Translations under genes and position numbers: made by a program
Source: Thalassovita litoralis
GTDB lineage: Bacteria; Pseudomonadota; Alphaproteobacteria; Rhodobacterales; Rhodobacteraceae
Length of the DNA: 64,000 nt
Assembly (NCBI RefSeq): GCF_900182725.1
Contig: NZ_FXTO01000016.1
Coordinates: 1 to 64,000 of the forward strand
Direction of reading: 5' to 3'
Shown here: positions 3,564 to 19,976 of the stretch, piece by piece
How the letters are laid out: every line of letters begins with the position of its first letter
Numbering within the stretch: the stretch's first letter is position 1
The notes under the pieces: generated by a model
Databases searched by the model: none
Told to the model about the DNA's origin: nothing
What the model saw: only the letters and a program-made list of their open reading frames with translations

Positions 3564-3644
3564 ATACGGGCTGACACAGGGCTTTCCCCATATCGTCCAA
3601 CAGCTATGCCGGGGATATTCGGGGACAAAATGAAGGGGCAAAAT

Positions 3645-4550
3645 ATGCGGATCGTTTTCATGGGGACACCCGAGTTTTCCGTGCCAGTGCTGGATGCGCT
3701 GGTGAAAGCCGGACATGAGATTGCAGCGGTTTATTGCCAGCCCCCCCGCCCCGCAGGGCGCGGGAAAAAGGATCGCCCCACCCCGGTTCATGCGCGGGCT
3801 TTGGATCTGGGGCTGGAGGTGCGCCACCCTGTTTCCCTGAAAGGGGCAGAGGAGCAAGCGGCGTTTTCCGGGCTGGCGGCAGATGTTGCGGTTGTCGTAG
3901 CCTATGGGTTGATCCTGCCGCAGGCGGTGCTGGACGCCCCGAAACATGGTTGCCTGAACATTCATGCGTCTTTGCTGCCGCGCTGGCGCGGTGCGGCGCC
4001 TATTCATCGCGCGATCATGGCCGGGGATGCAGAAACCGGGGTTTGTATCATGCAGATGGAGGCCGGGCTGGACACTGGCCCCGTATTGCTGCGCCGGGCA
4101 ACGCCCATCGGAGCCGAGGAGACAACAGCGCAATTGCATGACCGCCTGTCCAAGATGGGGTCCACCCTGATTGTCGAGGCTTTAACCCAACTAGAGGCTT
4201 TGACACCAGAAACGCAGCCGGAGGCGGGCGTGACCTATGCCCATAAGATCGACAAGGTCGAAGCGGCCGTGGATTGGTCGGCCCCGGCTGAAGAGGTGGA
4301 TCGTAAAATCCGGGGTTTGTCGCCGTTTCCGGGGGCTTGGGTCGATATTGATGGCGGGCGGCTGAAACTGTTGGCCTCGCGGTTGGTTCACGGGACAGGC
4401 GCACCGGGCGAGGTTCTGGATGATATGCTGACCGTGGCCTGCGGAACCGGCGCGGTTCAGATTTTGCGCTTGCAACGGGCTGGAAAGGGGGCGCAGGATG
4501 CCAATGAATTCCTGCGCGGGATGCCCTTGCCCAAGGGAACCCGCCTGTAA
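3645..4550 (+). CDS. fmt: Methionyl-tRNA formyltransferase
   Basis: The product, 301 residues, formylates the amino group of Met-tRNA(fMet) using 10-formyl-tetrahydrofolate, so that ribosomes can start with fMet. The signature [18 protein letters not shown] and the [17 protein letters not shown] stretch are classic Fmt. The N-terminus [16 protein letters not shown] supports the ATG at 3645 (ribosome site GAAGGGG) over an in-frame ATG at 3606. In many bacteria def is directly beside fmt. Here the deformylase genes lie 15 kb away as a tandem triplet. Confidence 0.95.
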
Positions 4551-18314: not shown

Positions 18315-18414
18315 CGCGCGACCCCTTACAGGCCCAAGGCAGTCCCCCTTGGCAACGCAGTCACAAATGATCCCCACCGGCTTCTTTCTGATTGCCAATA
18401 CTCCCGCCGGAGGC

Positions 18415-18461
18415 CCGGAAAATTTCAAATTTTCCGGTCAAAATTCTTTGTACGAATTTTG
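18415..18461. repeat. Double-palindrome intergenic element, copy 1
   Basis: Two adjacent inverted repeats. The first has perfect 11-bp arms CCGGAAAATTT / AAATTTTCCGG around a single C (18415-18437). The second has 8-bp arms CAAAATTC / GAATTTTG with a 7-base loop (18439-18461). The same architecture, with related bases, recurs at 46297-46343. It lies between the convergent era and deformylase-like genes. Confidence 0.75.
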
Positions 18462-18472
18462 CAATCCCCGCC

Positions 18473-18967
18473 TTACCGGAATTTCCGCGCCTTACGGATC
18501 AGCATGTCGCGCTTCATCTTCGACAGATGATCAAAATACATCTTGCCATTCAGATGGTCGATCTGATGCTGAACGCTGGTCGCCCACAGCCCAACAAAAT
18601 CCCGCTCTTCAACCTCTCCTGCCTCGTTCAGAAATCGGACCGTCACCGCGCGGGGCCGTTCGATCCGGGCGTGGACGCCGGGCAGGTTCGGGCTGGCCTC
18701 GTCATGGGGACGGAACTGAACGCTGGAATGCAGCACTTCGGGATTCGCCATGCGCACCGCCTGCCCGCGCGCTTCGGACGCATCCACAACGGCCAGGCGC
18801 TGCATGACGCCGATCTGCACCGCAGCCAGCCCGACACCGGGCATGGCTTCCATCGTGTCGATCATATCGGCCCAGATTGCCCTTGTTTCATCGGTAATCA
18901 TCTCAACCGGATCGGCCACGGTACGCAGCCGCTTGTCCGGCCAGGGGATACATTTCCGAACGGTCAT
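18473..18967 (-). CDS. Peptide deformylase-like protein with degenerate active site
   Basis: A 164-residue deformylase fold protein with an intact motif 1 (GVGLAAVQIG). The other two motifs are changed. EGCLS, whose Cys binds the metal, reads EASPN (Cys to Ser92). HEIDH reads HQIDH, so the general base Glu is Gln135, encoded CAG. Both residues are essential in known deformylases, so this copy should not deformylate peptides. The frame is fully open and starts inside the stop of the preceding def gene, which argues it is maintained. A role as a binding or regulatory partner is inference. Confidence 0.85.
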   Translation of the reverse strand: MTVRKCIPWPDKRLRTVADPVEMITDETRAIWADMIDTMEAMPGVGLAAVQIGVMQRLAVVDASEARGQAVRMANPEVLHSSVQFRPHDEASPNLPGVHARIERPRAVTVRFLNEAGEVEERDFVGLWATSVQHQIDHLNGKMYFDHLSKMKRDMLIRKARKFR

Positions 18968-19461
18968 TTCTGCGCCTCCAGATAAGCGCCTTCGATACGG
19001 GCGCGATCGCTATCCCCGATCCGGTCAAAGATCACACACCCGTCCAGATGGTCATATTCATGCAAGGCGCAACGCGCCTCGAACCCGGTCAATTCGCGCC
19101 GGATCATTGCGCCATCCAAACCCCGCCAACGCAGCAGCACAGATACCGGGCGCTCAACCTCAACCGGCGCATTCGGGATCGACAGGCAGCCTTCTTCTCC
19201 TGTCGCAGTTTCCGCGGACAGGGATATGATTTCCGGGTTTATACAAACCTCGGGCGTTGGGTTGCCCTCTTTCCAGCCGCAGTCCATCACAAACATGCGC
19301 TTCATGACGCCAACCTGCGGGGCTGCCAGCCCGCGCCCCGGCGCATCATACATGGTTTCCAACATCGCCGCCGCCAAATCCGAAACATCCTCGTCCCCGA
19401 CTGGGGCACAGACCTGCGACAAACGGGGATCGGGCCATTTCAGGATTGGCAGAATGCTCAT
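18964..19461 (-). CDS. def: Peptide deformylase (second copy)
   Basis: A complete 165-residue deformylase. Motif 1 is GRGLAAPQ, with Arg at the usually hydrophobic position; motif 2 is EEGCLSIP with Cys92; motif 3 is HEYDH with His134, Glu135 and His138. All catalytic residues are therefore present. It removes the formyl group from nascent proteins. It overlaps both def neighbours by four bases, forming a coupled three-gene operon with an identical order of motifs but only moderate sequence identity between copies. Confidence 0.92.
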   Translation of the reverse strand: MSILPILKWPDPRLSQVCAPVGDEDVSDLAAAMLETMYDAPGRGLAAPQVGVMKRMFVMDCGWKEGNPTPEVCINPEIISLSAETATGEEGCLSIPNAPVEVERPVSVLLRWRGLDGAMIRRELTGFEARCALHEYDHLDGCVIFDRIGDSDRARIEGAYLEAQK

Positions 19462-19976
19462 GTCCGCGCCCGTTCGCGTTTCAATTTCTGCATTTTGCGG
19501 GTGATCATCTGGCGCTTCAGCGGTTTCAGATAATCAATGAACAGCTTGCCGTTCAAATGGTCGATTTCGTGCTGAACACATGTCGCCCACAGACCTGCAA
19601 AATCTTCTTGCTGCTCTTTACCGTTCCGGTCGATCCATTTCACGGTCACTTCGGCTGGGCGGGTCACTTCGGCGTATTGCTCGGGGATGGACAGGCAGCC
19701 TTCTTCATAAACGCTGGTCTGATCCGACGCAGCGACCACCTCGGGGTTGAACATGATCAACGGTCGCGGGGTTTCGCCCTGTTCTTTCACGCAATCCAGC
19801 ACGATCAGGCGATCCAGCACACCGATTTGCGGCGCCGCCAAACCAACGCCCGGCGCGTCATACATGGTTTCCAACATGTCGTCAGCCAATGTACGCAAAT
19901 CATCAGACAGGTCTGGCACAGCAGCACAGACCTTTTTCAGGCGGGGATCGGGATGGATCAGGATCGGACGTATCAT
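19458..19976 (-). CDS. def: Peptide deformylase (first copy, canonical)
   Basis: The first gene of the tandem triplet, 172 residues. It carries GVGLAAPQIG, EEGCLSIP (Cys94) and QHEIDHLNG (His136, Glu137, His140), as in housekeeping type 1 deformylases. This is the copy most likely to do the bulk of N-formyl removal. Upstream is an AT-rich 257-bp gap shared with the divergent PatB-type gene. Confidence 0.95.
   Translation of the reverse strand: MIRPILIHPDPRLKKVCAAVPDLSDDLRTLADDMLETMYDAPGVGLAAPQIGVLDRLIVLDCVKEQGETPRPLIMFNPEVVAASDQTSVYEEGCLSIPEQYAEVTRPAEVTVKWIDRNGKEQQEDFAGLWATCVQHEIDHLNGKLFIDYLKPLKRQMITRKMQKLKRERART

Follow-up and report, generated by a model that had tools for sequence, protein, structure and literature searches.

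A clade-wide conserved pseudo-deformylase, dead by its sequence, beside a working peptide deformylase in Rhodobacterales

Clustered peptide deformylase (PDF) genes have been reported for 98.1% of Rhodobacterales reference species, with three such genes in 62.5%, in a survey that calls the rationale for clustering elusive (PMC12690207, Mol Biol Evol 2025; this and all other papers given by PMC number are cited from excerpts). PDFs classed as type 3 comprise the second PDFs of S. aureus and S. pneumoniae and the trypanosomatid PDFs (PMC12690207, PMC5591237). At the ribosome, the C-terminal helix of E. coli PDF docks on uL22 (L149, K150, R153 and K157) and 23S rRNA (K160 and R163) (PMC12690207), and PDF, docking by this helix, competes there with methionine aminopeptidase (MAP; PMC8712518); a phage PDF works without its C-terminal region (PMC5591237), so that the tail cannot be a general requirement of PDFs. 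In B. subtilis, defA lies in an operon with fmt and protects against H2O2, and DefA inhibits the kinase PtkA; the inactive E133A form of DefA still works, the C-terminal helix is needed, and N-formyl-Met peptides have been proposed to assist (PMC11194573).

The window analysed here, a whole stretch of 64,000 nucleotides from Thalassovita litoralis, carries three def genes, numbered here as copies 1 to 3. The third, as far as sequence can tell, encodes a pseudo-deformylase, dead and kept, which is conserved across the clade beside a working deformylase and probably has a non-catalytic job in protein synthesis.

Three def genes and a replaced active site

The initial annotation had described three def genes overlapping by four bases each, an arrangement confirmed here as open reading frames on the same strand; they are the only PF01327 matches in the whole 4.1 Mb genome. 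The features are as follows.

19458..19976, minus strand: def copy 1, 172 aa, PF01327 score 183 bits
18964..19461, minus strand: def copy 2, 165 aa, PF01327 score 168 bits
18473..18967, minus strand: def copy 3, pseudo-deformylase by sequence, 164 aa, PF01327 score 132 bits
19458..19461, minus strand: overlap of copies 1 and 2, 4 nt, ATGA
18964..18967, minus strand: overlap of copies 2 and 3, 4 nt, ATGA
18677..18706, minus strand: motif II region of copy 3, residues 88-97, HDEASPNLPG (computed from the start codon at 18967)
18554..18571, minus strand: motif III of copy 3, residues 133-138, QHQIDH (computed from the start codon at 18967)
18476..18526, minus strand: basic C-terminal tail of copy 3, residues 148-164, LSKMKRDMLIRKARKFR, equivalent to the E. 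coli ribosome-docking helix

Copy 1 has all the catalytic motifs (GVGLAAPQ, EGCLS and HEIDH) and a basic C-terminal tail; copy 2 also has intact motifs (GRGLAAPQ, with Arg in motif I, EGCLS and HEYDH), together with an acidic C-terminal tail from which the docking residues have been lost, and the EGCLS and HExDH signatures first assigned to both copies are thus present. In copy 3 motif I agrees with the enzyme pattern (G-phi-G-phi-A-A-x-Q; GVGLAAVQ), and the enzyme's motif II (EGCLS, with the metal-ligand Cys) and motif III (HExxH, with the catalytic Glu) are replaced by EASPN and HQIDH; the earlier description of an intact, coupled frame with the metal Cys changed to Ser and the catalytic Glu to Gln holds. 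In E. coli PDF numbering, anchored on the motifs and used from here on, copy 3 differs from the E. coli enzyme by Cys90 to Ser, Leu91 to Pro, Ser92 to Asn and Glu133 to Gln. Leu91 to Pro, beside the metal ligand, and Cys129 to Ser are two fixed changes beyond those noticed at first, and Gln50, Glu88 and both metal His residues are kept. The PF01327 score of copy 3 (131.7 bits) compares with a cut-off of 22.8, and its score against the TIGR00079 'equivalog' model (127.7) exceeds the cut-off of 103.95, so that this model would name copy 3 a deformylase.

An AlphaFold2 model of copy 3, built with 27 orthologues (pLDDT 90.5, pTM 0.86), has a C-terminal helix at 150-161, and its top structural matches in the PDB are bacterial PDFs, with Burkholderia 5j46 first; against E. 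coli PDF entries the TM-score is 0.93-0.94 and the rmsd falls as low as 1.2 A. The closest solved chain by sequence is likewise Burkholderia 5j46, an ordinary PDF (E 6e-43), with no member of the copy 3 family, judged by score, in the best 60 of 79 matches among solved chains.

Copy 3 is defined in the counts by Ser90 together with Gln133, and the non-circular checks are 60 loci picked by similarity (30 top-ranked, the window included, and 30 from the low-scoring tail) and a tree made without the motif columns. Conservation of Ser and Gln across relatives, proposed as a check in the initial annotation, is complete among the similarity-chosen loci: the Ser90/Gln133 protein, with the Ser/Pro/Gln set, is present in 60/60, the window's own counted, and the replacement set recurs in 5/5 still more distant copy 3 orthologues. 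Ser90, Pro91, Ser129 and Gln133 are each found in 65/65 similarity-chosen copy 3 proteins, as are His132, His136 and Gln50, and position 92 is Asn in 54 and Cys in 11. Another set, of 80 named loci, was chosen by patterns containing part of motif II and the AMPG stretch that starts motif I, for which reason the motif, cleft and tail statistics are taken from the similarity-chosen loci. The complete Ser-Pro-Gln set occurs in 144 of 395 distinct proteins, a number that includes pattern-chosen loci (the selection patterns touch motif II, not motif III), and Ser90, Pro91 or Gln133 occurs in 0 of the other 251, where only two copy 2 proteins, damaged in different ways, depart from Cys-Leu-Glu. Identical sequences, proteins aligned over fewer than 120 residues and proteins with a gap at motif III were removed before counting, among them a split copy 3 from one genome (G310). 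PDFs picked from Alphaproteobacteria outside the family (20, seven of them second copies) had Cys and Glu in 20/20, with no dead second copy. The recurrence of the set in all 60 similarity-chosen loci is far beyond chance, and the active site of copy 3 reads as replaced and not decayed.

The formyl oxygen is held by the backbone NH of Leu91 together with Gln50, and a Pro at position 91 is without a backbone NH. With the metal thiolate, the catalytic Glu and the Leu91 NH all exchanged, copy 3 should not deformylate by the known mechanism. In Salmonella, a C90S PDF gave no growth rescue under zinc, with Cys90 stated to be required for activity (PMC7683392), and DefA of B. subtilis is inactivated by E133A (PMC11194573); a docking study presents Leu91 and Gln50 merely as hydrogen-bonding positions (PMC4964514). 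By analogy with the C90S and E133A mutants of these other PDFs, deformylation by copy 3 through the known mechanism is very unlikely. As to whether copy 3 acts as a decoy for actinonin-like hydroxamate inhibitors, we infer that this is unlikely, because hydroxamates bind the metal, which is probably absent from copy 3.

A new active site, formed by Ser, Pro and Gln with the two His residues and serving another chemistry or another metal, possibly even deformylation under special conditions, is improbable, given the joint loss of the metal thiolate and the catalytic Glu, the lack of a backbone NH at Pro91 and a gene context that suggests no other substrate. The invariance of the replacement set and the retention of both metal His residues in the 65 similarity-chosen proteins would suit such an enzyme, as would the argument that PDFs with deviant motifs might have activity with different cofactors (PMC12690207).

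Proteins of the copy 3 family contain a mean of 1.0 Cys, compared with 3.6 for copy 1. Ser at positions 90 and 129, both Cys in copy 1, and the low Cys count may hint at indifference to redox conditions or NO.

Distribution, phylogeny and selection

In a first sample, the copy 3 query found an orthologue in 33/37 genomes of the window's family, and named orthologues come from Thalassovita, Roseovarius, Ruegeria, Salipiger, Pararhodobacter and others (Rhodobacterales). A profile of 27 copy 3 orthologues gave a match at E <= 0.001 in 390/390 sampled genomes of the window's order; the best match reached the copy 3 level (E <= 1e-60) in about 378 of these, counted by eye, and in the remaining 12 it lay at the level of an ordinary deformylase (1e-44 to 1e-52), nine of them having a single PDF, two having copies 1 and 2, and one (G310) having the split copy 3. 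Copy 3 is absent from 11/390 genomes in eight genus codes, with the gene kept in congeners of two of them, a scatter which indicates that it is dispensable. The split gene of G310 (L134/L137/L145) runs over two frames, through a sequencing error or early loss.

Outside the family, no copy 3 orthologue was seen, on reading by eye, in 380 alphaproteobacterial genomes (from a class-wide sample of 385), since the best match there (7.3e-52) does not surpass what copy 1 of the window scores (3.6e-52); 20 of these genomes were without any match. In a tree of 95 proteins, the 24 copy 3 rows form one clade (SH-aLRT 100), placed among alphaproteobacterial PDFs, and the clade appears again with SH-aLRT 100 when the columns of motifs I, II and III are left out (quick method, 129 columns).

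Copy 2 is fast-evolving and patchy, and is missing from many relatives. Two of 76 copy 2 proteins (L073 and L168) are without catalytic residues, and differently so (ENALS with QQVMDH in one case, HKLDH in the other); this damage has the look of real decay, in contrast to copy 3. Median pairwise dN/dS, a further check proposed at the outset, places copy 3 (0.22, 196 pairs) near copy 1 (0.21, 202 pairs) and below copy 2 (0.39, 148 pairs), as computed from NG86 counts for pairs with dS < 1.5 in 22 genomes holding all three copies; because 12 of the 22 are pattern-chosen, one of these (L073) has a damaged copy 2 that has possibly raised the copy 2 figure, and synonymous divergence is large, more weight can be put on how the copies compare than on the values themselves. 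In 61 similarity-chosen loci, pairwise identity averages 0.71 among copy 1 proteins and 0.63 among copy 3 proteins; where all three genes are present (38 loci), the mean is 0.73 for copy 1, 0.52 for copy 2 and 0.64 for copy 3. Copy 3 is thus under a little less constraint than copy 1 and under markedly more than the intact-motif copy 2; it is under purifying selection.

Constraint is also evident in the cleft, for which we take 23 positions after E. coli PDF structures. Across the 61 similarity-chosen loci, copy 3 has a mean cleft entropy of 0.50 bits versus 1.22 elsewhere, with 0/10000 column permutations as low, and copy 1 has 0.19 versus 0.97. For the 38 loci with all three genes, the cleft and elsewhere values are 0.14 and 0.86 in copy 1, 0.91 and 1.55 in copy 2, and 0.47 and 1.13 in copy 3, with 0, 35 and 3 of 10000 permutations as low, respectively; since in copy 2, too, the cleft varies less than the rest of the protein, cleft constraint does not set copy 3 apart. 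The order of constraint (copy 1, then copy 3, then copy 2) suggests that the copy 3 cleft still does something.

Whether copy 3 is randomly decayed in relatives, a question raised with the initial annotation, is answered by the same substitutions throughout the family; their uniformity, together with dN/dS, rules out random decay. An inert leftover of duplication, kept by operon position only, is a highly improbable account of copy 3, because every examined orthologue has the same substitutions, dN/dS is about 0.2, the cleft is conserved and the frame is open in all examined genomes but one. The 11 absences from 390 genomes, in eight genus codes, point the other way, as does copy 2, which shows that decay does yield dead copies (2/76).

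The C-terminal tail, the gene neighbourhood and possible roles

A net tail charge of at least +3, counted from position 146, is found in 77/77 copy 1, 65/65 copy 3 and 1/42 copy 2 proteins of the similarity-chosen loci; the copy 3 tail carries +5 to +9 in 65/65, charge alone being no proof of ribosome binding. Among the positions that contact the ribosome in E. coli, 150, 157 and 160 are Lys or Arg in 114/114 copy 3 proteins, 153 is Met in 106/114 (and mostly Met in copy 1 too), 163 is Lys or Arg in 21 of the 114 and absent in 54, and 149 is variable; copy 1 has a tail 5-6 residues longer than copy 3. The dead copy 3 would thus have kept most of the docking tail that the intact-motif copy 2 has lost. 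As the phage PDF is active without its C-terminal region, copy 2 may well be active, and is perhaps an off-ribosome deformylase.

The shared substitutions, the single clade, purifying selection, the constrained cleft, the retained tail and the clustering with def and, in relatives, fmt form the basis on which copy 3 is regarded as a conserved pseudo-deformylase. The initial annotation held that the protein is kept for a non-catalytic job: that it is kept, intact and dead by sequence with the same substitutions family-wide, has stood up, and the job is something we infer. The basic tail and the constrained cleft fit the ribosome or formyl-peptide binding then suggested. Our tentative reading is that copy 3 docks where nascent chains leave the ribosome, keeps hold of formyl-Met N-termini that it does not cut, or does both. 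At the tunnel exit it would bind uL22 by its basic tail, competing there with active PDF and MAP, and/or its cleft would hold formyl-Met N-termini uncut; docking or holding of this kind would decide at what time, or from which nascent chains, the formyl group comes off.

A signalling role is conceivable and unlikely, in which copy 3 would be a sensor of formyl-peptides or of stress and the regulator of a non-ribosomal protein, like DefA with PtkA; the precedent is DefA, which inhibits PtkA without need of deformylase activity (PMC11194573), and the exchange of both cleft Cys residues for Ser, with few Cys in the protein as a whole, could suit a redox-indifferent protein, but DefA is catalytically competent, so the parallel with copy 3 extends to role only.

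The gene neighbourhood bears on ribosome docking and formyl-Met holding, and on a further alternative. The 80 named loci have the orders def1-def3-fmt (45), def1-def2-def3-fmt (30), def1-def2-def3 (4, with no fmt within the stretch available) and def3-fmt (1), the usual def1-(def2)-def3-fmt thus accounting for 75/80. Copy 3, as measured from its aligned start, overlaps copy 2 in 33/34 loci and copy 1 in 22/45, and fmt directly follows copy 3 in 8/8 congeners of the first sample. In the window's genome the linkage of copy 3 to fmt has been lost, with fmt located as follows.

3606..4550, plus strand: fmt (methionyl-tRNA formyltransferase), open reading frame from 3606, family match from 3645

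Comparison with two congeners shows an inversion of about 14.8 kb (window positions of about 3.6-18.4 kb), one of whose breakpoints falls between copy 3 and fmt; a search for inverted repeats between the two breakpoint regions gave only matches of 8-9 nt, at E 0.8 or worse. Past the copy 3 stop, at 18370-18475 on the minus strand, lie two AT-rich hairpins and a GC-rich element (GGCCTCCGGCGGGAGTATT), the 17-nt core of which has 8 copies in the genome (reversed control, 0); hairpins and element are possibly a terminator or an intergenic repeat.

Close packing of the genes, with these overlaps, and the status of copies 1 and 3 as the usual pair, copy 2 being optional, would also suit a copy 3 that complexes with copy 1 (or copy 2) and stabilises or allosterically tunes it, as a prozyme-type paralogue. 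We consider such a partnership distinctly unlikely, as type-1 bacterial PDFs are known as monomers, and as copy 1 occurs without copy 3 in 11/390 genomes, where its motifs and tail look unchanged.

Extended to the whole cluster, the reading of copy 3 as a docking and holding protein leads to a possible, if doubtful, three-part system of Rhodobacterales, in which a catalyst that docks on the ribosome (copy 1) and an optional catalyst lacking the docking tail (copy 2) would be joined by copy 3, which would dock, read formyl-Met N-termini without cutting them and control nascent-chain deformylation. Were this true, copy 3 would be a pseudo-deformylase dedicated to the translation machinery, a kind for which we are aware of no description. 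That a PDF dead by sequence retains its cleft and ribosome tail throughout an entire order of abundant bacteria, with an intact enzyme and mostly also fmt encoded beside it, points to a layer of regulation.

Relation to described deformylases

Some alphaproteobacterial 'peptide deformylase-like' entries in UniProt carry a caution on missing residues. Because copy 3 passes TIGR00079, lists that call every PF01327 or TIGR00079 match an active deformylase mislead for this clade. Among the matches listed in literature searches on Rhodobacterales, pseudo-, inactive and -like deformylases, in which subscription journals are little covered, there was no report of a uniformly dead member, and excerpts from papers among those listed for Roseobacter and Rhodobacter deformylases contained nothing on peptide deformylase.

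Canonical type-1 bacterial PDFs (PF01327, TIGR00079) share with copy 3 the fold, motif I with its Gln, Glu88, the metal His residues and the basic tail; copy 3 differs from them in the change of the metal Cys to Ser, of Leu91 to Pro and of the catalytic Glu to Gln. Like copy 3, type 3 PDFs are motif-deviant, weak or inactive accessory PDFs (PMC12690207, PMC5591237), with which the comparison is by description; unlike them, copy 3 presents one uniform set of substitutions across a whole order, and where type 3 is defined by substitutions in motifs I and II and by a place in the type 3 clade of the PDF tree, copy 3 deviates in motif II and not in motif I, and falls among alphaproteobacterial PDFs in a tree free of type 3 sequences. 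DefA of B. subtilis resembles copy 3 as an accessory PDF whose gene accompanies fmt and whose role needs no deformylase activity, but it is catalytically competent and its target is a tyrosine kinase (PMC11194573).

The clustered accessory PDFs of Rhodobacterales (PMC12690207) are the same clusters as the def copies described here. The excerpts of that survey contain no mention of a cluster member that is uniformly dead and keeps the ribosome tail; the def clusters are thus already published, and what is apparently new is that one member is uniformly dead by sequence, a finding that answers in part, and in concrete terms, the survey's question of why two or three PDF genes cluster in Rhodobacterales.
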